Shown: positions 39,447 through 56,629 of the stretch, piece by piece | Position numbering within the stretch: position 1 is the first letter of the stretch | Layout: each line of letters begins with the position of its first letter | Source of the DNA: Janthinobacterium tructae | GTDB lineage: Bacteria; Pseudomonadota; Gammaproteobacteria; Burkholderiales; Burkholderiaceae_D | Direction of reading: 5' to 3' | DNA length: 64,000 bases | Assembly: GCF_006517255.1 (NCBI RefSeq) | Contig: NZ_CP041185.1 | Span: 4,526,001-4,590,000 of the forward strand | Notes under the pieces: generated by a model | What the model was told of the DNA's origin: nothing | The model's input: the letters and a program-made list of their open reading frames with translations, nothing else | Database searches by the model: none | Position numbers and translations under genes: made by a program

Positions 39447-40544
39447 CTATTTCGCTGTAGGCGGCAGGGCCGCTTTCATCGCCTGCCAGTACTGGCTGGT
39501 CAATGGGGTGCAGACGGGGCAGGGCGTGGCGGCGATCAGGCTCTCGATCTGCTGCGCGCGCGCCGCCGTTTGCGGGTGCGAGGAAATCCATCCGGGTACG
39601 CTGGCCTTGTCCTTGTCATCGAGCTCCTGAAAAAAGCGCAGCATGCCGTCGGGACGGATCTGCGCGCGCTGCAAGGCGAGCAAACCCAGACGGTCCGCTT
39701 CCTCTTCCATGTCGCGGCTGAAATACAGGGTGCCGGCCTGGTGCGCCAGCATGGCGGCCACGGCGCTGATGTCGCCGATGGTCACGCCCACCAGGGCGCC
39801 CCAGCCCAGGCTGCTGATCATTTGCCGCAGCGAATGGCGCTGTTCCACATGCTGCACTTCATGCGCGAGCACGCCGGCCAGCTCGCCCGGATCGCCCGCC
39901 TGGCGCAGCAAGCCCGTATGCACGACGATGATGCCGCCCGGCATGGCAAACGCGTTGACCGTGTCATCCTGCTTGACCAGCCAGCGGTACTGGTAGCGCG
40001 ACCCCGCCGTCAGCTTGCGGCCGATCTCCTGCACCGTCTGCTGCGCCACGCCGTGCTCGCTGATGCCGCCCTGCGCGCGCACTTGCGCCAGGGCCAGTTC
40101 ACCCAGCTGTTTTTCCGTCGACACGGGGATCCAACCCGCCAGCGCGCCGATGGCATGGCCGCCCTGCCACCACAGCAGGGCGGCAGCGATGACGGCCGCG
40201 CCCGTCAAGCCGGCCAGCCAGCCCGACACTTGCCGCCGGTTGCGCTGGCGCTCGCCCCACAGGCGCTGCAGTTGCGGCTGTAGCGCGGGTGGGGCTTCTT
40301 TTAAAACGATGGCGATGTCGCCCGCTGTCAGCGGCTTGAGCGAGGCTTGCCGTCCTTGTGCGTCGAGCCAGTTCAGGAACAGTTCCGGTCCGTCGACACC
40401 GCCCACGCTGACGACCAGCTGCGCCACATCCACGCTATGGCCGGGCGCGTCGATGGCCAGTTGCCGGCCGAAAAAATGCGCGCCGACGGGTGTGCCGGCG
40501 GCGCCGCCCTCGGGGCCGGTCAGCAGTGCCTGGAATGGCATCAT
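39447..40544 (-). CDS. M48 family metallopeptidase with N-terminal membrane anchor
   Basis: 365 residues. A roughly 100-residue N-terminal domain precedes a single membrane helix at about 106-126 (VSGWLAGLTGAAVIAAALLWW). The peptidase domain follows, with HEVQH at 228-232 and the third zinc ligand in SRDMEEEADRLG near 281. TPGGIIVVHTGLL-type segments (MPGGIIVVHTGLL) are typical of M48. The catalytic part should be periplasmic. Its ATG overlaps the stop of the upstream HPP-CBS gene by 4 bases (40541-40544), indicating translational coupling. Confidence 0.87.
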   Translation of the reverse strand: MMPFQALLTGPEGGAAGTPVGAHFFGRQLAIDAPGHSVDVAQLVVSVGGVDGPELFLNWLDAQGRQASLKPLTAGDIAIVLKEAPPALQPQLQRLWGERQRNRRQVSGWLAGLTGAAVIAAALLWWQGGHAIGALAGWIPVSTEKQLGELALAQVRAQGGISEHGVAQQTVQEIGRKLTAGSRYQYRWLVKQDDTVNAFAMPGGIIVVHTGLLRQAGDPGELAGVLAHEVQHVEQRHSLRQMISSLGWGALVGVTIGDISAVAAMLAHQAGTLYFSRDMEEEADRLGLLALQRAQIRPDGMLRFFQELDDKDKASVPGWISSHPQTAARAQQIESLIAATPCPVCTPLTSQYWQAMKAALPPTAK

Positions 40545-41707
40545 GCTGCCGCCTCGGCAAAGCGGCTTTCGTACAGCGCCGCCATCAGGTCGGACTGGCT
40601 GATGATGCCGGCCAGGCGCTCGTCATCGTCGAGGATGGGAATATGGTGATAGCCGGCGTCGGCCATCAGGGGCACCAGGTCGATGATGGGCGTGCCCAGG
40701 CGCGCCGTGTGCGGCGACGGCGTCATCAGCTGGCCCACCACCTCGGGCTTATCGCTGTGGGAAAGCCCGCTGCGCTGCAGCAAGCCGCGCAGGCGCTGGC
40801 GCATGCCCTGATAATCGTCGAGGCCGCCGTGGCGCAGGAAATCCGTCTGCGTGATGATGCCGATGACGCGGCGCGCCCGGTTCAGCACGGGCAAGGCGCC
40901 CACGTCGTGCTCGCGCATGGTGCGCCAGGCAACATCGAGCGGCGTGCCGAATTCCACGCTGAGCACATCCTTCGACATGATGTCGGCGCAGGTGACGACG
41001 CCGAAGCGGCGCTGGTAGGCGCGCATTTCCGTCTGCAAGAAGATGGCTTGCAAATCGTCGCGGCTGATGTCGAGCACTTCGCTGTGCTGGCGCAAGACGG
41101 CATCGAGGTCGTCCGGCGAAAAGCCCAGGCGGTTGCTGGGCACGTCATCCCTGGTGGCGTGCGGATGCGGCGCGACCAGTTGCTGGATGTGCGGGTAGCG
41201 GCGTCCCGTCAGGTTGTTGTACAGCACGGCGCAGGCGACCAGCACGGCGGAATTGAACAGCACGGTGATGAAGACGAATTCAAAGCCGGCCGCATGCACG
41301 CTGGCACCACCGACCACGGTGGTGAGCGCCACGGCGCCGCCCGGCGGATGCAAACAGCGCAGGGCAAACATGGCGCTGATGGCCAGGCAGGCCGCCAGCG
41401 CCGCCACGCCCACGCTGGGCCCCAGCCATTTGACGCAGGCCATGCCGACCAGGCCGGAGACGACATTGCCGCCCACCACCGACCACGGTTGCGCCAGCGG
41501 GCTTGCTGGCAGGCAGAACAGCAGCACGGCCGAGGCGCCCATGGGCGCGATCAGGTAGACGCTGGCGCTGTCCGGGGCCAGCAGGAAATGGCAGATGAGA
41601 CCAGTGAGTAACAGGCCGCAGATGGCGCCCGCGCAGGCGCGCAATTGTTCGCGGCGGCTGCCGTTGTTCGGTTGCGGCAGCCAGCGTGCCAGGAAAGAAG
41701 TCGTCAT
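40541..41707 (-). CDS. HPP family membrane protein with C-terminal CBS domain pair
   Basis: 388 residues. Four or more membrane helices in the first 165 residues, with the HPP motif H120-P-P in FALRCLHPPGGAVALTTVVGG and APMGASAVLLFCLPASPLAQPWSVVGGN. Two CBS domains follow (about 240-300: CADIMSKDVLSVEF...VGALPVLNRARRVIGIITQTDFL; about 315-375: VGQLMTPSPHTARLG...HHIPILDDDERLAGIISQSDLM), which likely bind adenine nucleotides. Cyanobacterial HPP proteins are implicated in nitrite transport; the substrate here is unknown. It overlaps the M48 peptidase gene, so the two are probably made together. Confidence 0.88.
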   Translation of the reverse strand: MTTSFLARWLPQPNNGSRREQLRACAGAICGLLLTGLICHFLLAPDSASVYLIAPMGASAVLLFCLPASPLAQPWSVVGGNVVSGLVGMACVKWLGPSVGVAALAACLAISAMFALRCLHPPGGAVALTTVVGGASVHAAGFEFVFITVLFNSAVLVACAVLYNNLTGRRYPHIQQLVAPHPHATRDDVPSNRLGFSPDDLDAVLRQHSEVLDISRDDLQAIFLQTEMRAYQRRFGVVTCADIMSKDVLSVEFGTPLDVAWRTMREHDVGALPVLNRARRVIGIITQTDFLRHGGLDDYQGMRQRLRGLLQRSGLSHSDKPEVVGQLMTPSPHTARLGTPIIDLVPLMADAGYHHIPILDDDERLAGIISQSDLMAALYESRFAEAAA

Positions 41708-42238: not shown

Positions 42239-42739
42239 ATGCGCCTTTCCATTCTTCTTGCCAGCCTGCTGCTTGCCGGCACCGCCGTTGCCGCCGCGCC
42301 AACGCCAAGCAACCCTGTCGCCACGCCGCACTTGCCGTACAACGCGGCGGCCGACGCCAAGGCCGACGTGGCCCGCGCGCTGGCCGAAGCCAAGGCGGCG
42401 CACGTGCCTGTCTTGCTGATCTTTGGCGCCAACTGGTGCGAGGATTGCCGCGCGCTCGATAAGGCATTGAAGGAAGGCAAGAACGCCGAGTTGATGCAAC
42501 AGCAGTTCAAGGTCGTCAAGGTCGATGTTGGCAACTTCGACCATAACCTGGACGTGGCGCACGCCTATGGTAATCCGCTCAAGAAAGGCATCCCGGCTGC
42601 CGTGCTCGTATCGAGCGACAACAACCAGGTGCTGTACGCCACCAAGGGCGGCGAATTGGCGAATGCGCGCCGCATGAGTGAAAGCGGCATTTATGATTTC
42701 TTCAAGCAAGCGGCGAGCGTGAAAGCGCCGGCGATCTAA
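42239..42739 (+). CDS. Periplasmic thioredoxin-fold protein
   Basis: 166 residues. Signal peptide MRLSILLASLLLAGTAVAAA, then a thioredoxin-like domain with redox motif W-C67-E-D-C70 (LLIFGANWCEDCRAL) and the cis-proline region KGIPAAVLV. It resembles the thioredoxin_7/DUF953-type proteins that reduce disulfides in the periplasm. No DsbD-like reductant is adjacent. CAGGAG lies 8 bases before the ATG. It converges with the chemoreceptor gene with only 6 bases between stops. Confidence 0.85.
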   Translation: MRLSILLASLLLAGTAVAAAPTPSNPVATPHLPYNAAADAKADVARALAEAKAAHVPVLLIFGANWCEDCRALDKALKEGKNAELMQQQFKVVKVDVGNFDHNLDVAHAYGNPLKKGIPAAVLVSSDNNQVLYATKGGELANARRMSESGIYDFFKQAASVKAPAI

Positions 42740-42745
42740 TCGCCT

Positions 42746-44749
42746 TTAAAACTCTTCCCACGCATCGCTGTCCGGCGCTGTCGGGCGCGCGGCGGGTATC
42801 GCCGCTTTTGCCGTTACTATGCGCGCCGGCTTGGGCAGTACGGGCTTGTGGGGCGCTTGCTGCGGCACTGCATGCCCCGTTTCTTCCAGCTTGAAGACGC
42901 TGACCACCTGCGCCAACCGGCCTGCCTGGTCTTGCAAGGATTGGGCCGCTGCAGCCGCTTCTTCCACCAGGGCCGCATTTTGCTGGGTCGCGTCATCCAT
43001 CTGCGTGACAGTGGCATTGACTTGCGCGATGCCCTGGCTTTGCTCCTGGCTGGCCGAAGCGATCTCTCCCATCAGGTCGGCGACCCTCTGGACGGAAACG
43101 ACGATGTCCTGCATGGTGGCGCCGGCCGAGTCGACCAGCTTGCTGCCAGCTTCCACCTTGCTGCCCGAGTCGACGATCAAGTCCTTGATTTCCTTCGCCG
43201 CCGCTGCCGAGCGTTGCGCCAGGTTGCGCACTTCTGTCGCCACCACGGCAAAGCCGCGGCCTTGTTCGCCCGCGCGCGCCGCCTCGACCGCCGCGTTCAG
43301 GGCGAGGATATTGGTTTGAAAGGCAATACCGTCGATCACGCCGATAATGTCGGCGATCTTGCGCGAACTTTCTGTAATCGCGCCCATCGTCTGCACGACT
43401 TGTCCGACCACCTCGCCACCCTTGACGGCGTGGCTCGAGGCCGACACCACCAGCTGGTTCGCCTGGCGCGCATTATCCGCGTTCTGTTTCACGGTCGACG
43501 TCAGTTCTTCCATGGCCGCCGCCGTTTCTTCCAGGCTCGACGCCTGGGCTTCCGTGCGGGCCGACAGGTCCAGGTTGCCCGACGCGATCTGGCTCGATGC
43601 ACTGGCAATCGCCCCGGTACTGTCGCGAACTTCGCGTATCGTCACGTTCAGTGAGGCGACGAAACGGTTGAAGGCGGCAGCCAGCGCGCCAACTTCGTCT
43701 TCCGATTCGACGGGCATGCGGCGGCTCAGGTCGCCGTTCCCGCTGGCGATCTCGCTGAGCATGTCCGCTGCGCGCGCGACGGGGGCGGCGATGGCGCGGC
43801 TGATGACATAAATGATGAGCAGGGCGATGCCGCCGCCGACGAGGCCGGCGATCAGGGCGGCGATCAGGGCCGAACGCGTGACATTGCCCAGCACTTCCGC
43901 TTCCGGCACTTCGGCCATCACATATAAATTCAGTTCCGGCACGAAGGAAGCGGCGACGAACTGGCGTCCCGCAGGCGCGTCGTAGATGGCGTACGCGTAT
44001 TTGTTGCCCGTCAACAGGCTCTTGCTCAGGGTATCGCTAAAGCCCGGCAAATCCTTGAGTGGATGCTTGCCATCGGCCAGGGCCGTGTCGCGGTGCACCA
44101 GCAGCACGCCGTTGGCGCGCGCCAGGTAGACATGGCCCGTCTGGCCGATCTTGTAGCTGCGGATGGTGTCGGCCAGCGCATTGATGGACAGGCCCAGGCC
44201 GGCCGCGATCTGCTTGCCGCCCGCCGTCTGGCCGCGCGCATTCAGGTACAGCATCAGGTCGCTGGAGTTTTCCGCCTTGTCGATGTCGAGCGTGTAGGCC
44301 TTGTCGCCGGCCAGCAAGCCATAAAACCACTGGTCGGCCGCCTGGTGCTTGTCCAGGGTGCGCAGCAAGCCCTCCGTGGTGAAGTATTTGCCCGTGCTGG
44401 CGGAAGCCCAGTTGATCGAGGCCGCCTTGTTCTTTTCCTTGACCACGGTGGCGTAGCGCTGGAAGGTGGCGATGCCGCTGTCGGGCAAGCCAGCGTCTTC
44501 CCAGTCTTGCAGGTAGACATCGTTGGCCATGGTCTGCACCACGGACAGGGGCTGGCTGATCTGGCGCAGCACGTCGTTGCGGATCTCGCCCACTTGCGCC
44601 GGCAATTCCTGGCTGACGACGCGCTCGCGCACGTAATCGCTGCTCATGCGCACGCTGAGGAACGACGAGATCGCCATGAAGAGCAGCAGGCACAAGCCCA
44701 TGCTGAACAGGAGTTTTTTCTGGATGGAGAGGCGGCGGAGCAGAGACAT
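42746..44749 (-). CDS. Methyl-accepting chemotaxis protein
   Basis: 667 residues from the ATG at 44749, with AAGG 6 bases upstream; the open frame back to 44869 is not preferred. Membrane helix at about 12-33, a periplasmic dCache-type sensor at about 34-300 ([18 protein letters not shown]), a second helix at about 305-332 and HAMP at about 333-385 ([19 protein letters not shown]). The signalling hairpin includes [43 protein letters not shown]. The protein ends DAWEEF, matching the C-terminal xWxxF pentapeptide that tethers CheR/CheB. The ligand cannot be told. No che genes are nearby. Confidence 0.94.
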
Positions 44750-44906
44750 GAAAGACCTTGGACGATGGCCTGCACAAGGGGCAGACAAGCGGGCAGTATA
44801 CCGGCCGCGCTGCGCGTCCCGCCGCACCATTGCTGCTTCCCGTTCATTTATGTTGCATTGCGGCAACATGATTTTCCACAGCGGTCCCGCATGGCCGGAA
44901 AACGCC

Positions 44907-45404
44907 TCAGGCAGGCAAGCCGTGGGCGATCAATTCCAGCGGCAATTCCGTGCTGCATTTGATTTGCTCCATGGAAAAGGCGGACGACACCCCCGTCAGC
45001 TGCACGGCCTTGATGAGCTTTTTATAGAAGGTGTCGTAGCCCTTGATGTCGGTGGTGACGACTTTCAGCAGGTAGTCGATGTCGCCGCTCATGCGGTGAA
45101 ATTCCTGTACCTCGGGCAGGACGATGACGGCGGCGGCGAAGCGGCGCAGCCATTTTTCATCGTGCTGGCCCGTGCGCACGCTGACGAAAACCGTGACGGG
45201 CAAGCCCACTTTTTGCCGGTTGACGATGGCCACGCGGCTCTCGATATAGCCCTCTTCCTCCAGGCGCTTGACGCGCTTCCAGCAGGGCGTGCTGGACAGG
45301 CCGATCTTCTCGCTGAGGGCGGCGATCGACAGGGTACCGTCCTGCTGCAGGGCGGCCAGGATGGCGCAGTCGAATTTGTCGAGCGAGGTGTTGGGTGAAT
45401 TCAT
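44907..45404 (-). CDS. Lrp/AsnC family regulator, DecR-like (probable cysteine responsive)
   Basis: 165 residues from the ATG at 45404. N-terminal helix-turn-helix ([47 protein letters not shown]) and C-terminal RAM ligand domain. TPCWKR in the recognition helix and the C-terminal [18 protein letters not shown] closely resemble E. coli DecR (YbaO), which activates cysteine detoxification genes. This comparison is from memory of the family, not a search. It is divergent from the desulfurase-rhodanese fusion, with 153 bases between, and a 14-base palindrome lies 21 bases before its start. Confidence 0.87.
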
Positions 45405-45424
45405 TTTACTATTCCAGTTTTTAT

Positions 45425-45438
45425 AGCATGAACATGCT
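45425..45438. promoter_or_regulatory. Palindromic candidate operator in the divergent intergenic region
   Basis: AGCATG-AA-CATGCT, a perfect 6-bp inverted repeat flanked by AT-rich sequence (TAT on the left, TGCATA on the right). Its position near the regulator start and upstream of the fusion gene suits an Lrp-type autoregulatory site. Confidence 0.5.
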
Positions 45439-45557: not shown

Positions 45558-47597
45558 ATGAAAGAAATCTACCTCGACAGCAATGCCACCACTTGCGTGC
45601 TGCCCGCCGCCGTTGCCGCCGCCCGGCAAGCGATGGAGCAGGGCTATGGCAATCCCAGCAGCACTCACGCCACGGGATTGCAGGCCAAGGCCATGATGGA
45701 TGGCGTGCGTCAGCGCGCCAGCGGCTTGCTGGGCGTGGGCGACGGCCGCTTGATGTTCAATAGCGGCGCCACCGAAGGCATCCAGACGGCCGTGCTGTCG
45801 GCCCTGTGCGCGCTGCGCGAACGGCGCGATGCGGGCAAGCGCATCGGCAGCCTGCTGCTGTATGGCGCGACCGAGCACAAGGCCGTGCCGGAAAGCCTGG
45901 CGCACTGGAACCGTTTATTGGGCCTGAACCTGGAAGTGCGCAAGCTGCCCGTCGATGCACACGGGCGCCACGATCTGCAGGCGCTCGATGCGCTGATCGG
46001 CGACACAGCCATGCTGTGCACGATGGCGGCGAATAATGAAACAGGCGTCATCAGCGACCTGTCCGCCATCGCGCAACTGCTGCAGGAGCGCGGTGCCGAT
46101 GCCTACTGGATGGTCGATTGCGTACAGGCGCTGGGCAAGCTGAAACTGAACCTGGCCGCCACGCGCATCGATTACGCGCCGTTCTCCGGCCACAAGCTGT
46201 ATGCGCCGAAGGGCATCGGCATGCTGTATGTGCGCGCCGGTGCGCCATTTACACCGTTGATGATGGGCGGCGGCCAGGAAGCGGGCCTGCGCTCGGGCAC
46301 GGAGAACATGGCCGGCATCGCCGCCCTGGGCGCCGTGCTGGTTGCGCTGGACGATGGCAAGACCTTCCGCAGCCACGCGGAGCTGGTCGCTTTCCGCGCG
46401 CAGCTGGTGAGCAGCCTGGAGCGCGCTTTCCCCGGCATCGTGTTCAATATGCCGTTTGACTTGTCGCTGCCGACCACGCTCAATTTTTCCGTGCCGGGCT
46501 TGTCCTCGAAAGAGCTGCTGGACCTGTTCGACGCGGCGCGCGTGCGCGTCAGCTCGGGCAGCGCCTGTTCCGCCGCCAAGGCCCTGCCCAGTTATGTGCT
46601 CGAAGCGATGCACGTGCCGCAATGGCGTGCCAGCTCGGCCATCCGTTTGTCGTTTGGTCCCCTGATCGATGCGGCGACGATAGCGGCCGCCTGCGCGCGC
46701 ATCGAGCGCTGCGGCGAAGCGCTGCGCAGCAGCTGTTTGCTGCCGTCGGCGCTGGCGCCATCGCCGCTGGACGGCGCGCAGGACGGCGTAATCCAGCTGA
46801 GCGTCGATGGCCAGTGCACCTGGCTGCTCAGCGACGCTGCCAGCGCCAGTTGCGTCGTTATCGATCCCGTCGCCGCGCTCGTGCCGCGCCTGGCCGCCTT
46901 CATCCGTTGCCAGCACCTGGCCTTGCGCGCCATCGTGCATACGACGGCGCCAGCCGACCATGGCGTGGCGCGCCTGGCCTTGCTGCAGGAACTCGTTATC
47001 GAACAAGTCGGTCACGTCGATATCGACGGTGAGCTGGCACTGGGCCAGCAGCGTTTGCGCCGCGTCGAGTGTGGCGAAAACCATGTGTATCTGCTGGGGC
47101 AGCGCTTCGCTTTCATCGGCACCCTGGCGCCCGAGGCGCTGACGCCCTTGCTCGATGCGGCGCTGCTGACGCCGGGCACCGTGCTGTGCGGCGCACGCGA
47201 CGATGGCAGCATCTGCTGCACCGTGCGCACGGCGCAGGAAGGCATCGTACCGGCGGCCGACCTGCAGCTCGATGCGGCCAGCTTGCCCGCCTTCCTGCGC
47301 CAGCATCCCGACGCCATCCTCGTCGACGTGCGTGAAGCGTATGAACACGCGGCCTGCGCCGGAACCGTGTTCGAGGGCTGCGCCGTGCACAGCGTACCGC
47401 TGAGTCGCCTGGCGGGGCAGGTGGCCGCATGGCTGCAGCAGCCTCAATGCCCGCTGGTCTTTTTCTGCCGCAGCGGCAACCGCAGCGCGCGCGCTAGCGC
47501 CTGTCTGCGCCGCCTGGGCCATGCTGCGGCATGGCAGCTCAACGGCGGCATGGCGATGGCGGAAGCGACGCGCCACCCGCTGGCCATCGCGGCTTGA
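45558..47597 (+). CDS. Tripartite fusion: cysteine desulfurase + decayed metallo-beta-lactamase fold + rhodanese
   Basis: 679 residues. Residues 1-385 are a class V aminotransferase/IscS-NifS fold: YLDSNATT start, GATEHKA, PLP Lys213 (SGHK), SGTEN and catalytic Cys337 in SGSACSAAK. Residues about 410-565 resemble a metallo-beta-lactamase (persulfide dioxygenase-like) domain: CVVIDP, then H-T-T463-A-P465-A-D-H468 where active enzymes have T-H-x-H-x-D-H, and a LLTPGTVLCGARDDG end. Two metal ligands are lost, so it is probably structural. Residues about 570-670 are a rhodanese (ILVDVREAYEH, active Cys637 in CRSGNRS). One chain could thus form a persulfide from cysteine and hand it to the rhodanese site. 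No signal peptide. Divergent from the DecR-like regulator. Confidence 0.85.
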   Translation: MKEIYLDSNATTCVLPAAVAAARQAMEQGYGNPSSTHATGLQAKAMMDGVRQRASGLLGVGDGRLMFNSGATEGIQTAVLSALCALRERRDAGKRIGSLLLYGATEHKAVPESLAHWNRLLGLNLEVRKLPVDAHGRHDLQALDALIGDTAMLCTMAANNETGVISDLSAIAQLLQERGADAYWMVDCVQALGKLKLNLAATRIDYAPFSGHKLYAPKGIGMLYVRAGAPFTPLMMGGGQEAGLRSGTENMAGIAALGAVLVALDDGKTFRSHAELVAFRAQLVSSLERAFPGIVFNMPFDLSLPTTLNFSVPGLSSKELLDLFDAARVRVSSGSACSAAKALPSYVLEAMHVPQWRASSAIRLSFGPLIDAATIAAACARIERCGEALRSSCLLPSALAPSPLDGAQDGVIQLSVDGQCTWLLSDAASASCVVIDPVAALVPRLAAFIRCQHLALRAIVHTTAPADHGVARLALLQELVIEQVGHVDIDGELALGQQRLRRVECGENHVYLLGQRFAFIGTLAPEALTPLLDAALLTPGTVLCGARDDGSICCTVRTAQEGIVPAADLQLDAASLPAFLRQHPDAILVDVREAYEHAACAGTVFEGCAVHSVPLSRLAGQVAAWLQQPQCPLVFFCRSGNRSARASACLRRLGHAAAWQLNGGMAMAEATRHPLAIAA

Positions 47598-47764: not shown

Positions 47765-50700
47765 TTGCGCGCAGTGCGCACCTACGATGAAGTTCAGAAA
47801 ATCTCCCTGCACCCTGAGATTCATCGCAACGCTCCGGCGCTTCGCTTTCCGTTTTCGCCAGTGTCCGATCGTGTTCTTCCAGACTTGGCCAGCGTGACGG
47901 TGGCCGCTGGCTGCCTGCGCGCACCTAGCGAGGCCAAGTTGAAAGAGTACACCGCAGTCGTCACGCAGCAGATCAAGGAACAGATTTCCAAATTCAAGGA
48001 AATCTTCCGCGACCATCCCCTTGCACCGGACAGTTTCGACGCTGCGCGCGACGATGCCTTGCCCCTGCGTTCCGAGTTATTCAGCGCCATGCAGATGGCC
48101 GCCCACGGCAAGCACGTGGCCGCCGGCCACGCGGTGGGCAAGCACCATGGCCGCGACCGCCTGCTGGCGCGCCTGGCCGACAATGCGGCCCTGATCACGG
48201 CCACCGTCAACGAGCTGACGGCCACGGTGAAAAGCGGACGCCAGGTTACGCCCGCCTCGGAATGGCTGCTGGATAATTTTTACCTGATCGAAGAGCAGAT
48301 CCGCACCACGCGGCGCCACCTGCCGAAGAACTACAGCAAGGAATTGCCACGGCTGACGTCGGGCGTGGACGCGGGCTGCCCGCGCGTGTATAAAATTGCG
48401 CTGGAAATCATCTCGCATGGCGACGGCCGGGTCGACCTGGAAAACCTGTGCCACTTCGTCGAGGCTTACCAGGATGTCGCCACGCTCACGCTGGGCGAAT
48501 TGTGGGCCGTGCCCATCATGCTGCGCCTGGCCCTGATCGAAAACCTGCGCCGCGTCGCTGCGCGCGTGGCCGACGACCGCATGCAGCGCGACCTGGCCAA
48601 TACCTGGGCCGACCAGATGATGGACATCGCCGAGCGCAATCCCAGCGGCTTGATCCTGCTGGTAGCCGACATGGCCCGTTCGAATCCGCCGATGACCAGC
48701 GCCTTCGTGGCCGAATTGTCGCGCCGCCTGCAGGGACAAAGTTCATCGCTGACCCTGGCCCTGTCGTGGCTGACGCACAAGCTGGCCGAGTCGGGCCTCA
48801 CCATCGAGCAGCAGATCCAGTCCGAGATCGGGCAGCAGGCGGCCGACCAGGTGTCGATCGCCAACAGCATCGGCAGCCTGCGTTTTCTCGGCACCATGGA
48901 TTGGCAGGAATTCGTCGAGACCATGAGCGTCGTCGAGCAAACCTTGCGCCTGGACCCGGCCGGCACGTATGGCTTGATGGATTTCGCCACGCGCGACAGC
49001 TACCGCCACGCCATCGAGCGCATCGCCAGGCGCAGCGCGCGCAGCGAAGTGGACGTCGCCGAGATGGTGGTGCAGCTGGCGCATACGCACGGCAATGGCA
49101 ATGACGCGCGCCGTGGCCACATCGGCTTTTACCTGGTGGGACGCGGCGTGCTGGTGCTGGAAAAGCAGGCCGGTGCAAAGCTGCCTTTCATCGAAGCGCT
49201 GCAGCAAACGGCGCGCGCCGCGCCGCTGGCCGTCTACCTTGGGGCCATCTCGTTCCTGACCCTGGCGACGAGCGCATTGCTGCTCGAGCGCGCCGTGCGC
49301 CATGGCGTGCAGGGCTGGCCCCTGGCGGCACTGGGCGTGCTGGCGCTGCTGGGCAGCAGCCAGCTGGCCGTGGCCGTGGTGAACTGGCTGGCGACCCTGA
49401 TGACGTCGCCCCATCCGCTGCCGCGCATGGATTACCAGGCCGGCATTCCGTCGGACGGGCGCGGCATCGTGGTGGTACCGACCCTGATCTACAGCGAGGA
49501 CAACGTGGCCGCCCTGTGCGAGGCGCTGGAAGTGCGCTACCTGGCCAACCGCGATCCGAACCTGCGTTTCTGCCTGCTGACGGATTTTGTCGATGCGTCC
49601 GCGCAAACGATGCCGGGCGACGAAGCCTTGCTGCGCCAGGCGCAGGACACCATCCGTGGCTTGAACGACAAATACCGCGTGGAGGGCAGCGAGCTCAAGG
49701 ACAATGGTGAGCCGGCCGACCCCGACGAACTGGGCCAGGTGGCGCCGTTCCTGCTGCTGCACCGTCCGCGCCTGTGGAATTCGCAGCAGAATGCGTGGAT
49801 GGGGCAGGAGCGCAAGCGCGGCAAATTGTCCGATCTGCACGCGTTTTTGCGCGGCGGGGCACGCGACAAATTCTCGCTGGTGGAAGGCGAGCTGCGCGGC
49901 CTGCGCACGATCAGATATGTGATCACGCTCGACACCGATACGCAGCTGCCGCGCGACGCGGCGCGCGAATTCATCGCCACCATGATGCACCCGCTGAACC
50001 GTCCCGTGCTGGACGCGGCCGGCACGCGGGTGGTGGCCGGCTATGGCATCCTGCAGCCGCGTGTGGCCGTGGCGCTGCCCAGCGCGAATGCCTCGCGCTA
50101 CGAACTGCTGTGCGGTGGCGAGCCGGGCATCGACCCCTACACGCGCACCGTCTCCGACCTGTACCAGGACGTGTTTTATGAGGGCTCCTTCATCGGCAAG
50201 GGCATCTACGACCTCGACATGTTCGAGCGCGTGCTGGGCCAGCGCCTGCCCGACAATAAAATCCTCAGCCACGACCTGCTCGAAGGCTGCTACCTGCGCG
50301 CCGGCTTGCTCAGCGACTCGCAGCTGTATGAGGAATACCCGGCCCGCTACGACGCCGACGTGAGCCGCCGCCAGCGCTGGATACGCGGCGACTGGCAGCT
50401 GATCGGCTGGTTGCTGGGCCGCGTGCCGGGCCGCGCCGGCAAGCGCGAACGCAATCCTCTGTCGATGCTGTCGCGCTGGAAGCTGTTCGACAACCTGCGC
50501 CGCAGCATCGTGGCACCGGCCACCACCGTGTCGTTGCTGCTGGTGTGGGGTTTCTTGCCGCACGTGGTTTTCTGGAGCGTGGCGGTGCTGGCCATCATCT
50601 TCCTGCCGCCCGTTTTTTCGGCCCTGTACGATCTGCTGCGCAAACCGCGCGACACTCTGTGGCGCCAGCATCTGACCGCGTTCGAGCGGCGCTGCGGCGT

Positions 50701-53700
50701 GCAGTTTTCGCATGCCATGCTGACCCTCGTCTTCCTGCCGTACGAGGCGTGGATCAGCCTCGATGCCATCGCCCGCACCCTGTGGCGTCTGGGCGTGTCG
50801 CACAAGCATTTGCTCGACTGGCGTGCCTCGAACCTGCATACGTCTTCCGGCTCGCAGGCAGACAGCTGGCGCGCCATGTGGTGCTCGCCCGCGCTGGCGC
50901 TGGCCACCTTTGCCGCCTTGCTGCACTGGCGCCCGGCAGCGTTGCCGGCCGCCGCCGTGGTGCTGCTGTTATGGCTGGCCGCACCCGCCATCGCCTGGTG
51001 GATCAGCCGCCCCATCGAACGGGCCGTGGCGCGCCTGTCGGCCGAGCAGGGGCGTTTCCTGCATGGCGTGGCGCGCAAGACCTGGGCCTATTTCGAGACC
51101 TTCGTCGGACCGGACGACCACTGGCTGCCGCCCGATAACATGCAGGAGCATCCGAACCTGGTGGTGGCGCACCGCACCTCGCCGACGAATATCGGCCTGG
51201 CCCTGCTGGCCAACCTGACGGCCTACGATTTCGGCTATGTCACCATGGGCCAGTTGATCGAGCGCAGCCGCGCCACCTTGCACAGCATGGGGGAACTGGA
51301 GCGCTTCCAGGGGCATTTCTACAACTGGTACGACACGCAAACGCTCAAGGCGCTGCAGCCCATGTATATCTCGACGGTCGACAGCGGCAATCTGGCCGGC
51401 CATCTGCTGACCTTGCAGCCCGGCCTGGTGGAACTGTACGACGCTCCCATCATGGGGCCACAGATCGTGGACGGCATCCGCACGACGGCGCAGGTACTGC
51501 AGGAATTCATTGCCGCGGAAGGCGAAGACAAGGCGGTGCGCGCATCGCTGGCGTTGCTGCAGATGCCGGCCGCGCCAGCCAGCCTGCCCGAATGGCATGC
51601 CTACCTGAGTGCCGCGAATGGTGCGGCCGACGCGCTGCTGTCGCTGACTCTGCAAAGCGACGATAGCGAGCTGGCCATGTGGAGCGGCGCGCTGGCGCGC
51701 CAGTGCCGCGCGGCGCTGGCCGAGTTGCTGCAACTGGCGCCGTGGGCGGCACAGGCGGGCCTCGATGCGGCGTGGCTGCGCGTGCCGACCCTGCGCGAAC
51801 TGGCCAATCTGGAGACGCCGGAAGGCTTGCCTTCCGAGCTGGCTGCATGGCTGGCGCAAGGCCGCGAACAGGCGGGCCGTCACATGCGCGACATCGCCCA
51901 CGCGGCGGGCCAGGCGCGCGACTTCGCGCAGATCGAATACGCGTTTCTGTACAACCCGTCGACCAAACTGCTGGCCATCGGCTACAACGTCAGCGAGCGG
52001 CGCCTCGACCCCAGCTATTACGATTTATTGGCTTCCGAAGTGCGCCTGGCCAGCTTCATCGCCATCGCGCAGGGCCAGCTGCCGCAGGAGCACTGGTTCG
52101 CGCTGGGCCGCCAGTTGTGCATGGTGGCGGGTCAGCCCGTGCTGCTGTCGTGGAGCGGCTCGATGTTCGAGTATCTGATGCCGCTGCTGGTGATGCCGAA
52201 CTATCCGAACACCTTGCTTGACCAGACCTACCACTCCGTCATCGAGGCGCAGATCGACTATGGCCGCCAGCGCGACGTGCCGTGGGGGATTTCCGAATCC
52301 GGCTACAACACGGTCGACGCCAGCCTGAATTACCAGTACCGCGCCTTTGGCGTGCCGGGGCTGGGCCTGAAGCGGGGCCTGGCCGACGACCTGGTGGTGG
52401 CGCCATACGCCAGCATGATGGGTTTGATGGTGCAGCCGGAAGCGTCGTGCCAGAACCTGCAGCGCATGCAGGCGGCCGGCTACATGGGCCGCTACGGCTT
52501 CTTTGAAGCCATCGATTTCACCACCGCGCGCCTGCCGCGCGGACAGGTCAGCGCCGTCATCCGCTCGTTCATGGTGCACCACCAGGGCATGGGTTTCCTG
52601 GCTCTCAGCTACCTGTTGCACGACCGCCCGATGCAGCGCCGTTTCGAGTCCGATCCGCTGCTGCAATCGGCCTTGCTGGTGCTGCAGGAGCGTACGCCGC
52701 AAGCGGGCGCGTTTTATTCGAACACGGCCGAACTGGCGGTGCTGCGCAGCGGCGCGTCCGAGCAGGCCATGCCGATGCGCATCCTCACCCAGGCCAACAG
52801 CGCCGTGCCCGAAACGCAGTTGCTGTCGAATGGCCGCTACCACGTCATGGTGAGCAATGCGGGCGGCAGCTACAGCCGCTGGAAAGACTTGTCCGTGACG
52901 CGCTGGCGCGAGGACAGTACGCGCGATAACTGGGGCAATTTCTGTTATTTGCGCGACCTCGACGACGGTGCCGTCTGGTCCACCATGTATCAGCCGACCC
53001 TGGTCGAACCGAAGAAGTACGAAGTGATTTTCTCCGAGGGGCGCGCGGAATTTCGCCGTGCCGACCATGGCCTCGACCTGTACACGGAAATCGTCGTCTC
53101 GCCCGAGGACGACATCGAAATCCGCCGCACGCGCATCAGCAACAATTCGAACCGCCAGCGGCGCATCGAGATCACCAGTTTTGCCGAAGTGGTGATGGCG
53201 CCGGCGGCGGCCGATGCGGCGCATCCCGCGTTCAGCAAGCTGTTCGTGCAGACGGAAATCCTGGCGCATGAAAATGCGATTTTATGCACGCGCCGGCCCC
53301 GCTCGAAAGACGAGCAGATGCCGTGGCTGCTGCATGTGATGACGGTGCACGATATCGAACACTATGCCGTGTCGTTCGAGACGGACCGCGCGCGCTTCAT
53401 CGGCCGCGGCAACACGGCGCAGCTGCCGCTGGCGTTGCAGGAGAGTGGTCCGCTGAGTGGCGGCCACGGTTCCGTGCTCGACCCCATCGTGGCCATCCGT
53501 TACGTGATCACGCTCGAACCGGACCAGGCGGTCACGGTCGACAGCGTGACCGGCATGGTGGAACAGCGCGAGGCGGCGCTGCACCTGATCGACAAATACC
53601 AGGATCGCCACCTGGCCGACCGCGTGTTCGAACTGGCCTGGACGCACAGCCAGGTGGTGCTGCGTCAGTTGAATGCCAGCGAAGCGGACGCGCAGTTGTA

Positions 53701-56629
53701 TGCACGCCTGGCCAATGCCGTGATCTACCCGAATGCGACCCTGCGTGCCGAGGCCGGCATCCTGATCAAGAACCAGCGTGGCCAGTCCGGCCTGTGGGCG
53801 TATGCCATTTCCGGCGACTTGCCCATCGTGCTGCTGCAGATACGCGACGTGGCCAATATCGAACTGGCGCGCCAGATGGTGCAGGCGCATGCCTACTGGC
53901 GCCTGAAAGGATTGATAGTCGATCTGGTGATCTGGTACGAGGACCAGTCGGGCTACCGCCAGCTGCTGCACGACCAGATCATGGGCTTGATCGCCTCGGG
54001 CATCGATGCGCAGGCGATCGACCGCCCTGGCGGCATTTTCGTGCGCCTGGCCGAGCAAATTGCCAACGAAGACCGCATCTTGCTGCAATCGGTGGCGCGC
54101 GCCATTATCAGTGACCTGCGCGGCACCCTGGCCGAACAGGTCAAGCGCCCGCCCAGCCCCGTGCTGCGCATGCCGCCGCTGCTGCAGGATTCTGCCCGCG
54201 AACAGGGCGGCGTGCCGTACCAGGCGCCAAAGCGCGCGCTGATCCTGGAAAATGGCCTCGGTGGTTTTACGCCCGACGGGCGCGAATACGTGATCACCAC
54301 GGGCGAAGGCACACAGACGCCGGCGCCCTGGTCGAACGTGCTGGCCAATGCGCAATTCGGCACGGTGGTGTCGGAAGGCGGCCAGGCGTATACGTGGAGC
54401 GAGAATGCGCATGAATTCCGCCTCACGCCATGGCAGAACGACCCTGTCTCCGACCTGTCCGGCGAAGCGTTTTATGTGCGCGACGAGCAAACCGGCCAGT
54501 TCTGGTCGCCGTCGGCCCTGCCGGCGCGCGGCAGCGGCGACTACGTGACGCGCCACGGCTTTGGCTACAGCATTTTTGAACACAGCGAGGGCGGTATCGC
54601 CACCGAACTGTGCACCTATGTGGCGCTCGACGCGGCCGTCAAATACGCCGTCATCAAGGTGCGCAACGACAGCGGCGTGCCGCGCCGCCTGTCCGTCACA
54701 GGCTACGTGGAATGGGTGATGGGCGACCTGCGCGCCAAGTCCTGCATGCACGTCGCGACCGAGGTCGACACCATCAGCGGCGCGCTGTTTGCGCGCAATA
54801 ACTACAACACGGAGTTTTCAGGCCGTGTCGGCTTTTTCAATACCGACGCCAGCATCCGCTCCATCACCTGCGACCGCAATGAATTCATCGGCCGTAACGG
54901 CAGTCTCGCGCAGCCGGCGGCGCTGCGGCGCGTGCGCCTGTCCGGCAAGGCGGGTACGGGGCTGGACCCGTGCGCAGCGATCCAGGTGCCGTTTGAACTG
55001 CAGCCGGGGCAGGAGCGCGAAATCGTCTTCATCCTCGGCGTGGGCGGGCGCCGCAACGCCGACGCCAGCACCATGGTGCAGCGCCATGCGGGCAAGGACG
55101 CGGCCCGCATGGCGCTCGACGCGGTGCGCGCGCACTGGGAGAGCACGCTGGGCGCCGTGCGCATCGAAACGCCCGATCCATCGCTGGACGTGATCGCCAA
55201 TGGCTGGCTGATGTACCAGACCATCGCCTGCCGTTTGTGGGCGCGCAGCGGCTATTACCAGTCGGGCGGCGCGTATGGCTTCCGCGACCAGTTGCAAGAT
55301 GCGATGGCCATGATCCACACGGCGCCGCAACTGCTGCGCGGCCATTTGCTGCTGTGCGCGGCGCACCAGTTTGTCGAAGGCGACGTACAGCATTGGTGGC
55401 ATCCGCCGTCGGACCGGGGCGTGCGCACGAACTGCTCCGATGATTACCTGTGGCTGCCGCTGGCCGCCTGCCGCTATGTGATTGCCACGGGCGACGTCAA
55501 CGTGCTGTCCGAAGTGGCGCCCTTCATCGAGGGACGCGCCGTCAAGCCGGAAGAGGATTCCTATTACGACTTGCCCGTGCGCTCAGGCGAGTCCGCCGAC
55601 CTGTACGAGCACTGCGTGCGTGCCATCCGCCACGGCTTGCGCCTGGGCGTGCACGGCTTGCCCCTGATGGGCTCCTGCGACTGGAATGACGGCATGGACA
55701 AGGTGGGCGAACACGGCAAAGGCGAGAGCGTGTGGCTGGCCTTCTTCCTGTATGAAGTGCTGCAGCGCTTTGCCGAGGTGGCCGTGCTGCGCGGCGATGC
55801 GGCGTTCGCCCAGTTCTGCCGCGACGAAGCCGTGAAACTGGCGGCCAATGTCGAGGAACATGCATGGGATGGCGAGTGGTACCGGCGTGCCTACTTCGAC
55901 GACGGCACGCCTTTGGGATCGCATACGAACGAGGAATGCCAGATCGATTCGATTTCGCAAAGCTGGGGCGTGCTGTCGGGCGCGGCCAACAAGGAGCGCG
56001 TGGCCGGCGCCATGCGCCAGGTCGATGCGCGCCTGGTGCGCCGAGATTCCGGCGTGATCCAGCTGCTCGATCCGCCGTTCGACAAATCCGATCTCAATCC
56101 CGGCTACATCCGCGGCTATGTGCCGGGTGTGCGCGAGAACGGCGGTCAGTACACGCATGCGGCCATCTGGACGGCGATGGCGTTTGCCCGCATGGGCGAT
56201 GGCGAAAAGGCGTGGGAACTGCTGCGCATGATCAATCCCGTACGCCATGGCGTGGATGCGCAGGCGGTGCAACGCTACAAGGTCGAGCCGTATGTGGTGA
56301 CGGCCGACGTGTATGCCGTGGCGCCGCATGTGGGGCGCGGCGGCTGGAGCTGGTACACGGGATCGTCGGGCTGGCTGTACCGGCTGATTGTCGAATCCCT
56401 GCTCGGCTTGACGCGCGAAGCGAACGTGCTGCGCCTGCTGCCGACCATGCCGGCCGAATGGGACAGCTTCAAGCTGCATTACCGCTTCGGTGCCAGCAGC
56501 TATGCCATCACGGTGGAAAAGGCACAGGGGCGGCCCGCAGGACTGTCGCTCGATGGCGTGGCGCAGGAGGGCAACAGCATCGCCCTGCGCGACGAGGGCC
56601 GCGAGTATGCGGTGCTATTGCTGGTGTAG
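47765..56629 (+). CDS. ndvB: Cyclic beta-1,2-glucan synthase (NdvB/ChvB type)
   Basis: Up to 2954 residues, the usual size. Inner-membrane, multidomain. An N-terminal region (EWLLDNFYLIEEQIRTTRRHLPKNYSKELP near residue 165) is followed by membrane helices near 480-545. The GT84 glycosyltransferase has TLDTDTQLPRDA near 720 and RRQRWIRGDWQ near 868. More helices lie at about 912-1082. A glycoamylase-like domain is near 1465-1650 (MFEYLMPLLVMPNYPNTLLD). The C-terminal half has two carbohydrate-binding/GH94 modules ending in a GH94 phosphorylase domain (NCSDDYLWLP, with the acid Asp, near 2560), which sets ring size. The start is uncertain: 47765 is TTG without a clear ribosome site, and TTG 47939 is an alternative. 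No ndvA exporter lies nearby. The product is an osmoregulated periplasmic glucan. Confidence 0.93.
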   Translation: MRAVRTYDEVQKISLHPEIHRNAPALRFPFSPVSDRVLPDLASVTVAAGCLRAPSEAKLKEYTAVVTQQIKEQISKFKEIFRDHPLAPDSFDAARDDALPLRSELFSAMQMAAHGKHVAAGHAVGKHHGRDRLLARLADNAALITATVNELTATVKSGRQVTPASEWLLDNFYLIEEQIRTTRRHLPKNYSKELPRLTSGVDAGCPRVYKIALEIISHGDGRVDLENLCHFVEAYQDVATLTLGELWAVPIMLRLALIENLRRVAARVADDRMQRDLANTWADQMMDIAERNPSGLILLVADMARSNPPMTSAFVAELSRRLQGQSSSLTLALSWLTHKLAESGLTIEQQIQSEIGQQAADQVSIANSIGSLRFLGTMDWQEFVETMSVVEQTLRLDPAGTYGLMDFATRDSYRHAIERIARRSARSEVDVAEMVVQLAHTHGNGNDARRGHIGFYLVGRGVLVLEKQAGAKLPFIEALQQTARAAPLAVYLGAISFLTLATSALLLERAVRHGVQGWPLAALGVLALLGSSQLAVAVVNWLATLMTSPHPLPRMDYQAGIPSDGRGIVVVPTLIYSEDNVAALCEALEVRYLANRDPNLRFCLLTDFVDASAQTMPGDEALLRQAQDTIRGLNDKYRVEGSELKDNGEPADPDELGQVAPFLLLHRPRLWNSQQNAWMGQERKRGKLSDLHAFLRGGARDKFSLVEGELRGLRTIRYVITLDTDTQLPRDAAREFIATMMHPLNRPVLDAAGTRVVAGYGILQPRVAVALPSANASRYELLCGGEPGIDPYTRTVSDLYQDVFYEGSFIGKGIYDLDMFERVLGQRLPDNKILSHDLLEGCYLRAGLLSDSQLYEEYPARYDADVSRRQRWIRGDWQLIGWLLGRVPGRAGKRERNPLSMLSRWKLFDNLRRSIVAPATTVSLLLVWGFLPHVVFWSVAVLAIIFLPPVFSALYDLLRKPRDTLWRQHLTAFERRCGVQFSHAMLTLVFLPYEAWISLDAIARTLWRLGVSHKHLLDWRASNLHTSSGSQADSWRAMWCSPALALATFAALLHWRPAALPAAAVVLLLWLAAPAIAWWISRPIERAVARLSAEQGRFLHGVARKTWAYFETFVGPDDHWLPPDNMQEHPNLVVAHRTSPTNIGLALLANLTAYDFGYVTMGQLIERSRATLHSMGELERFQGHFYNWYDTQTLKALQPMYISTVDSGNLAGHLLTLQPGLVELYDAPIMGPQIVDGIRTTAQVLQEFIAAEGEDKAVRASLALLQMPAAPASLPEWHAYLSAANGAADALLSLTLQSDDSELAMWSGALARQCRAALAELLQLAPWAAQAGLDAAWLRVPTLRELANLETPEGLPSELAAWLAQGREQAGRHMRDIAHAAGQARDFAQIEYAFLYNPSTKLLAIGYNVSERRLDPSYYDLLASEVRLASFIAIAQGQLPQEHWFALGRQLCMVAGQPVLLSWSGSMFEYLMPLLVMPNYPNTLLDQTYHSVIEAQIDYGRQRDVPWGISESGYNTVDASLNYQYRAFGVPGLGLKRGLADDLVVAPYASMMGLMVQPEASCQNLQRMQAAGYMGRYGFFEAIDFTTARLPRGQVSAVIRSFMVHHQGMGFLALSYLLHDRPMQRRFESDPLLQSALLVLQERTPQAGAFYSNTAELAVLRSGASEQAMPMRILTQANSAVPETQLLSNGRYHVMVSNAGGSYSRWKDLSVTRWREDSTRDNWGNFCYLRDLDDGAVWSTMYQPTLVEPKKYEVIFSEGRAEFRRADHGLDLYTEIVVSPEDDIEIRRTRISNNSNRQRRIEITSFAEVVMAPAAADAAHPAFSKLFVQTEILAHENAILCTRRPRSKDEQMPWLLHVMTVHDIEHYAVSFETDRARFIGRGNTAQLPLALQESGPLSGGHGSVLDPIVAIRYVITLEPDQAVTVDSVTGMVEQREAALHLIDKYQDRHLADRVFELAWTHSQVVLRQLNASEADAQLYARLANAVIYPNATLRAEAGILIKNQRGQSGLWAYAISGDLPIVLLQIRDVANIELARQMVQAHAYWRLKGLIVDLVIWYEDQSGYRQLLHDQIMGLIASGIDAQAIDRPGGIFVRLAEQIANEDRILLQSVARAIISDLRGTLAEQVKRPPSPVLRMPPLLQDSAREQGGVPYQAPKRALILENGLGGFTPDGREYVITTGEGTQTPAPWSNVLANAQFGTVVSEGGQAYTWSENAHEFRLTPWQNDPVSDLSGEAFYVRDEQTGQFWSPSALPARGSGDYVTRHGFGYSIFEHSEGGIATELCTYVALDAAVKYAVIKVRNDSGVPRRLSVTGYVEWVMGDLRAKSCMHVATEVDTISGALFARNNYNTEFSGRVGFFNTDASIRSITCDRNEFIGRNGSLAQPAALRRVRLSGKAGTGLDPCAAIQVPFELQPGQEREIVFILGVGGRRNADASTMVQRHAGKDAARMALDAVRAHWESTLGAVRIETPDPSLDVIANGWLMYQTIACRLWARSGYYQSGGAYGFRDQLQDAMAMIHTAPQLLRGHLLLCAAHQFVEGDVQHWWHPPSDRGVRTNCSDDYLWLPLAACRYVIATGDVNVLSEVAPFIEGRAVKPEEDSYYDLPVRSGESADLYEHCVRAIRHGLRLGVHGLPLMGSCDWNDGMDKVGEHGKGESVWLAFFLYEVLQRFAEVAVLRGDAAFAQFCRDEAVKLAANVEEHAWDGEWYRRAYFDDGTPLGSHTNEECQIDSISQSWGVLSGAANKERVAGAMRQVDARLVRRDSGVIQLLDPPFDKSDLNPGYIRGYVPGVRENGGQYTHAAIWTAMAFARMGDGEKAWELLRMINPVRHGVDAQAVQRYKVEPYVVTADVYAVAPHVGRGGWSWYTGSSGWLYRLIVESLLGLTREANVLRLLPTMPAEWDSFKLHYRFGASSYAITVEKAQGRPAGLSLDGVAQEGNSIALRDEGREYAVLLLV

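Follow-up and report, generated by a model that had tools for sequence, protein, structure and literature searches.

Organization of the locus

The fusion gene occupies positions 45558–47597 on the forward strand of the window, the 64,000-nucleotide stretch of the Janthinobacterium tructae genome (a single contig of 6.3 Mb) that was analyzed here. It encodes a protein of 679 amino acids in which a cysteine desulfurase is followed by a degenerate persulfide dioxygenase (PDO)-type metallo-β-lactamase (MBL) domain and a rhodanese. This three-part arrangement on one chain was proposed in a first-pass annotation and is confirmed by the open reading frame, by Pfam for the outer parts and by the fold for the middle part. 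A divergent Lrp/AsnC-family regulator (166 amino acids; 44907–45407, reverse strand) adjoins the fusion gene. Further upstream lie genes for a methyl-accepting chemotaxis protein (42746–44869, reverse strand), a thioredoxin-like protein (42239–42739, forward strand) and an HPP transmembrane protein with CBS domains (40541–41707, reverse strand). A giant downstream ORF of 2954 amino acids (47765–56629, forward strand) comprises GH94 supersandwich, GH94 catalytic and Glycoamylase domains and presumably resembles cyclic β-glucan synthases. The isc and nif genes are absent among the scanned neighbours of the fusion gene. Outside the bacterial family of the window, crude ORF calls give varying neighbours, and no conserved operon partner common to these genera was found.

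The N-terminal desulfurase domain (residues 1–391; 45558–46730, forward strand) carries the PLP lysine Lys213 and the persulfide cysteine Cys337. Pfam places Aminotran_5 at residues 4–371 (E 3e-54; 184.9 bits compared with a gathering score of 21.5). The domain shares the PLP lysine and the loop cysteine with the NifS/IscS group I desulfurases, from which the fusion differs by its additional C-terminal domains and its sub-cut-off NifS score. The best NCBIfam model is TIGR03402 (NifS), with 273.5 bits against an equivalog cut-off of 530.75; the cut-offs of DndA (231.5 against 480) and IscS (186.3 against 643.2) are also missed. The C-terminal rhodanese domain (residues 575–668; 47280–47561, forward strand) contains a CRSGNR loop with Cys637. 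It is detected by Pfam at residues 583–665 (E 2e-5; 25.7 bits compared with a cut-off of 22.2), and its sole PDB match among the 60 matches listed is BpPRF (5ve3). The columns of Lys213, Cys337 and Cys637, the catalytic residues named in the first-pass annotation, read K, C and C in all 140 aligned rows, the third letter being meaningless in row L076, in which the rhodanese end is out of frame. A full-length model was predicted with a pLDDT of 83.3 and a pTM of 0.84, with low confidence at residues 236–248, 336–339 and 398–405.

Homologues of the fusion were found in 81 of the 245 genomes of the family, with the own genome counted (E ≤ 1e-60), and proteins with the same domain order also occur outside the family. 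This recurrence indicates that the fusion is neither a chance event nor an assembly artefact. The named loci among the closest relatives all belong to Janthinobacterium (18/18). Seven of the 81 homologues contain a single stop codon within the match, which suggests that some copies may be broken. Both the fusion architecture and the decay of the middle domain, described below, are nearly certain.

The middle domain retains a dioxygenase-like fold but lacks the iron site

The middle domain (residues 406–565; 46773–47252, forward strand) has no match to Lactamase_B or any other Pfam family, either within the whole protein or as a single domain, so that of the domains expected in the first-pass annotation only Aminotran_5 and Rhodanese were detected. 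When residues 400–573 were used as a single query, the matches were weak, with PDOs first (ETHE1, E 0.0056; MxPDO1, E 0.056; BpPRF, E 0.21). A profile built solely from 29 decayed family members aligned with the greater part of MxPDO1 (4ysb) at an E-value of 1.4e-8. AlphaFold2 modeled the domain with a mean pLDDT of 88.3; the underlying alignment (A3) contained intact relatives, and the model is therefore not independent of them. In agreement with the MBL fold predicted in the first-pass annotation, every one of the top eleven chains in Foldseek is a PDO or a PDO-rhodanese fusion. The top chain is ETHE1 (4chl, E 1.4e-9), followed by 4ysb and 5ve4, and the others come from BpPRF (5ve3–5ve5), the Beggiatoa PDO (8zbd) and the P. 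aeruginosa PDO (9g8t). A chance likeness of this region to an MBL is ruled out by the fold and the decayed-only profile.

The iron triad of PDO comprises two histidines and one aspartate, which are described as H57, H113 and D130 in AcPDO (PMC6060420); this numbering is used for all ligands below, including the GSH-contacting arginine R139. The equivalents of the triad in the fusion are T463, a gap and T522, the last at the position of the GD-motif aspartate, and the whole triad is gone. The segment bearing the GSH-contacting arginine is deleted. Residues 461–468 read HTTAPADH, where a PDO reads THxHADH in the same register. Thr463 and Pro465 were indeed found at the first two histidine positions of HxHxDH, as first annotated, and D467 and H468 are retained. 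The PG-containing end noted previously is probably the TPG near residue 540 and not a PGH motif; the PGHT stretch corresponds to a gap in this protein. Taken together, the alignments and the model show a PDO-type MBL fold that has lost both the iron triad and the GSH-contact segment.

Relatives with an intact iron triad

Proteins with the same domain order and open frames of 747–801 residues are present in families f53, f70, f71 and f74, which belong to other taxonomic orders of the same class (which we take to be Gammaproteobacteria in the GTDB sense), and in G543, a genome of the taxonomic order of the window. Motifs of the PGHT, GD and HD types occur in these proteins, of which only two lack the full HxHxDH motif. 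Among three triad-keeping proteins scanned with Pfam, Lactamase_B scored above the cut-off in L105 and just below it in L098, and was absent in L101. At E ≤ 1e-90, homologues were found in 53 of the 116 f71 genomes, 49 of the 147 f53 genomes and 1 of the 10 f21 genomes. The triad is kept in 21/21 rows of f71 and 28/37 rows of f53, the remaining f53 rows being decayed (seven) or reduced (two), and in one row each of f70, f74 and f21.

Broader profile searches matched at least nine of 399 genomes of the order, with rhodanese-size frames in two of these, and at least ten of 398 genomes of the phylum. Five candidates were scored per genome in the order, phylum and class searches, and the counts are therefore lower bounds. 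In the class-wide sample (369 genomes), the hits outside the own genome were frames of 224–429 residues, as long as PDOs that stand alone or are fused to a rhodanese, apart from one frame of 627 residues. The named matches in the plasmid collection, seen as tblastn alignments, were three Pseudoalteromonas replicons, including NZ_CP045419.1 of Pseudoalteromonas sp. THAF3. A cysteine-synthase-like gene, labeled by eye, is located near and upstream of the intact fusion gene at L191 and L193.

The 52 rows classified as intact among the 140 aligned rows were defined by the triad. At positions outside this definition, H59 and H171 are present in 52/52 of them, R139 in 50/52, D61 in 41/52 and H62 in 38/52. 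The D/H pair of HxHxDH is altered while the triad is kept in L101, L102, L161, L163 and L166–L173. Retention of the mono-iron triad while D61 and H62 drift is easier to reconcile with a PDO than with a two-zinc hydrolase. AcPDO is reported to lose activity after a change of D61 or H62 (PMC6060420), so the drifting proteins, such as L101 and L102, may be weak or altered.

The decayed family rows exhibit a different pattern. Sequence was retrieved for 70 of the 81 loci of the family; one of these, L089, had no frame of sufficient length and was left out of the alignment. The thinned counts exclude the frame-broken L076, the window row with its fragment L111, and 16 Janthinobacterium rows that are nearly identical. 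None of the 49 thinned decayed rows has the full triad: H113 is absent from all of them, H57 is present in 7/49 and D130 in 1/49, L058 being the one row with both. D61 remains in 16/49 rows and H62 in 4/49, and the R139 position is a gap in 48/49 and alanine in 1/49. Four partly worn rows (L075, L078, L086 and L087) all retain D130 and H171.

Homologues that keep all of the ligands, and putatively the activity, were thus found as the undecayed relatives that are predicted by the first-pass proposal, in which a desulfurase was fused to a PDO-rhodanese protein whose dioxygenase then died. This proposal is supported by the intact homologues of the same domain order together with the PDO-like fold. 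The relatives keep the iron site, which identifies the window protein as the worn-down form.

Decay and removal of the dioxygenase

A tree of the desulfurase domain was built from 74 of the 140 rows, an earlier quick tree having comprised 108 of them. The tree splits the taxonomic order of the window from the other families. The decayed rows from genera g658 and g659 are grouped among intact relatives, intact L098 adjoins partly worn L075, and the two-domain proteins, which lack the middle domain, fall inside the clade of decayed proteins from the family of the window. The tested groups were defined by ligand state, and the quick tree was already known before the tests. A single clade for all non-intact rows, and with it one decay event for all of them, was rejected by the AU test (p 5.8e-7), as was a single clade for the seven two-domain rows (p 0.0148). 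Within the order of the window, one decay was not rejected (p 0.118), and several independent decays are therefore not established there. Iron-site decay and domain removal each occurred more than once, and removal produced two-domain proteins resembling CD-Rhd, the chimera published from Pseudorhodoferax.

The intact homologues of the same domain order outside the family suggest that the ancestor was probably a desulfurase-PDO-rhodanese chain, which in principle could have turned cysteine sulfur into sulfite or thiosulfate. The converse history, insertion of an MBL into a two-domain ancestor, is unsupported; the two-domain members lie inside the decayed clade and their monophyly is rejected by the test given above. 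A two-domain query of 200 genomes of the order (E ≤ 1e-100) matched two, both within the family. In L182 and L183, the middle domain is a short remnant, with 218–222 residues between the desulfurase and rhodanese cysteines; both were labeled as domain-absent in the 108-row tree although this remnant persists.

A divergent Lrp/AsnC regulator accompanies the fusion gene

The regulator contains both an AsnC-type HTH and a ligand-binding domain (HTH_AsnC-type and AsnC_trans_reg) and matches PDB 3i4p with an E-value of 1.8e-53. A divergent Lrp/AsnC gene adjoins 64 of the 70 family fusion loci, including 7/7 two-domain loci. The six loci without it are L083, which has no upstream sequence, L021, with only 1.5 kb, and L075, L078, L086 and L087, in which the gene is absent from 2.9–3.4 kb. 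No Lrp/AsnC neighbour was observed at the 78 non-family loci, some of which repeat the same gene and ten of which have fewer than 400 bases upstream; the regulator is likewise missing beside the intact-triad relatives.

A perfect palindrome, AGCATGAACATGCT, is located at 45425–45438 in the 150-bp region between the two genes and is a possible operator. Its exact form occurs once in the window, and no other site was found there at up to two mismatches. The pattern AGNAN6TNCT, picked after inspection of the same sequences, is present in 21 of the 33 intergenic regions of the family, compared with a mean of 0.7 and a maximum of 4 in 500 shuffles. We take the palindrome to resemble Lrp-type sites. 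By analogy with DecR of E. coli, as described in PMC11588850, the fusion would serve to detoxify cysteine under the control of an Lrp-type regulator, with cysteine as a candidate effector.

A proposed sulfur relay and the role of the dead domain

Both active domains are homologous to enzymes of known type, and the fusion should therefore run a transfer from Cys337 to Cys637. The PLP domain would desulfurate L-cysteine and leave a persulfide on Cys337. This sulfur would then move to Cys637 of the rhodanese, which may pass it to small or protein acceptors, such as GSH, sulfite (yielding thiosulfate) and protein thiols; cyanide, listed with sulfite and a thiol in the first-pass annotation, is a further candidate. 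Excess cysteine would thereby be cleared under the divergent Lrp/AsnC regulator. This relay and its cysteine-clearing role are likely from the sequence. The dead middle domain may act as a spacer between the two ends that is tolerated and perhaps mildly useful; in the intact-triad relatives, this domain would oxidize the persulfide formed on its own chain to sulfite. We consider it probable, taken as a whole, that the protein is a worn-down desulfurase-PDO-rhodanese whose Lrp-controlled relay clears excess cysteine across a tolerated spacer.

The dead domain is relaxed but still constrained. In 20 core Janthinobacterium rows, the ratio of median dN to median dS reaches 0.283 in the middle domain, against 0.075 in the desulfurase and 0.105 in the rhodanese, and the dead domain evolves approximately four times faster than the desulfurase. 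At a desulfurase identity of 75–80%, the mean middle-domain identity is 58% in intact pairs (134) compared with 39% in family pairs (567), and the mean rhodanese identity is 67% compared with 61%; this comparison used 68 family rows, partly worn ones included. A plausible, if somewhat doubtful, alternative is that the middle domain is a functionless spacer nearing elimination and that the protein works exactly like a two-domain CD-Rhd. The faster evolution of the domain, its removal on more than one occasion and the Lrp neighbour shared by the two-domain loci are consistent with this alternative. However, its dN/dS of 0.28 is well under 1, although this could reflect folding constraint only, its length is confined to 158–163 residues in the 20 Janthinobacterium rows, and W422, D436, G496 and F519 are retained in at least 96% of the 49 decayed rows. 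The scaffold role suggested in the first-pass annotation is no more than putative: relatives have lost the domain altogether and it is dispensable, though some purifying selection still acts on it.

Cys544 and Cys553 (47187–47216, forward strand) raise the possibility of a thiol module, in which the middle domain was rebuilt after loss of the iron site as a persulfide carrier or disulfide switch. C544 is present in 49/49 thinned decayed family rows, and C553 in 39/49 compared with 0/50 intact rows; the purifying selection on the domain also agrees with such a role. Yet C544 is already present in 41/50 intact rows, C553 is missing from ten of the 49 decayed rows and from the seven decayed rows of the other family, and the two-domain relatives dispense with the domain, making this rebuilding unlikely. 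The wider scenario, in which the intact relatives convert cysteine to sulfite or thiosulfate on one chain with no release of sulfide and the Janthinobacterium-family dioxygenase became a thiol relay or redox switch, appears similarly improbable. A live metalloenzyme with other ligands, such as a hydrolase, is highly improbable, for despite the surviving D467 and H468 and the scattered H57 (7/49) and D130 (1/49; both in L058), H113 is lost in all 49 decayed rows and D61 and H62 remain in only 16 and 4.

In the own genome (L229 and L230), a separate gene encodes a protein with the intact PDO motifs ETHAHADH, PGHT and GD, which suggests that the host probably does not lack a PDO. The genome also has a region with an SQR-like FAD protein, rhodanese-type proteins and YeeE-like proteins, as named by eye.

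Relation to known systems

BpPRF of Burkholderia phytofirmans is described as an active PDO. As in the fusion, its PDO domain precedes a rhodanese (PDB 5ve3–5ve5); it is the sequence match of the fusion rhodanese and among the best fold matches of the middle domain, but it has no desulfurase. Stand-alone PDO/ETHE1 proteins (4chl, 4ysb and AcPDO) share the MBL fold and sequence kinship with the middle domain, whereas the fusion has none of their three iron ligands and has lost the GSH-contacting arginine together with its segment.

Desulfurase-rhodanese and PDO-rhodanese chimeras are each already known. No report of the three-domain architecture was found in the titles and abstract openings of the papers listed from the open-access literature searched, and the intact chain seems to be a previously undescribed enzyme that takes cysteine to sulfite on a single chain. 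Such a chain would cover the whole path from cysteine to sulfite by itself. The intact, partly worn, dead and removed states form a natural series for how a multidomain enzyme sheds a step, and the loss of the dioxygenase suggests an origin for the very active two-domain desulfurase-rhodanese proteins.

The characterized example of the latter is CD-Rhd of Pseudorhodoferax sp. Leaf274 (WP_056898193.1; Selles et al., 2022, PMC8931425). The first-pass statement that no described system exists holds for the three-domain form in the literature searched, but goes too far for the wider family, given this two-domain chimera. CD-Rhd is reported to persulfidate acceptors using cysteine, and its authors describe it as the most efficient desulfurase characterized so far (PMC8931425). 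It resembles the fusion, by its description rather than its sequence, in combining desulfurase and rhodanese on one chain, and differs in having no middle domain. Both active cysteines of the fusion lie on one chain, which is the criterion for a natural CD-Rhd chimera. The catalytic cysteines of CD-Rhd are given as Cys334 and Cys466 (PMC8931425), 132 residues apart, which is near the 140–152 residues observed in six two-domain members of the family.
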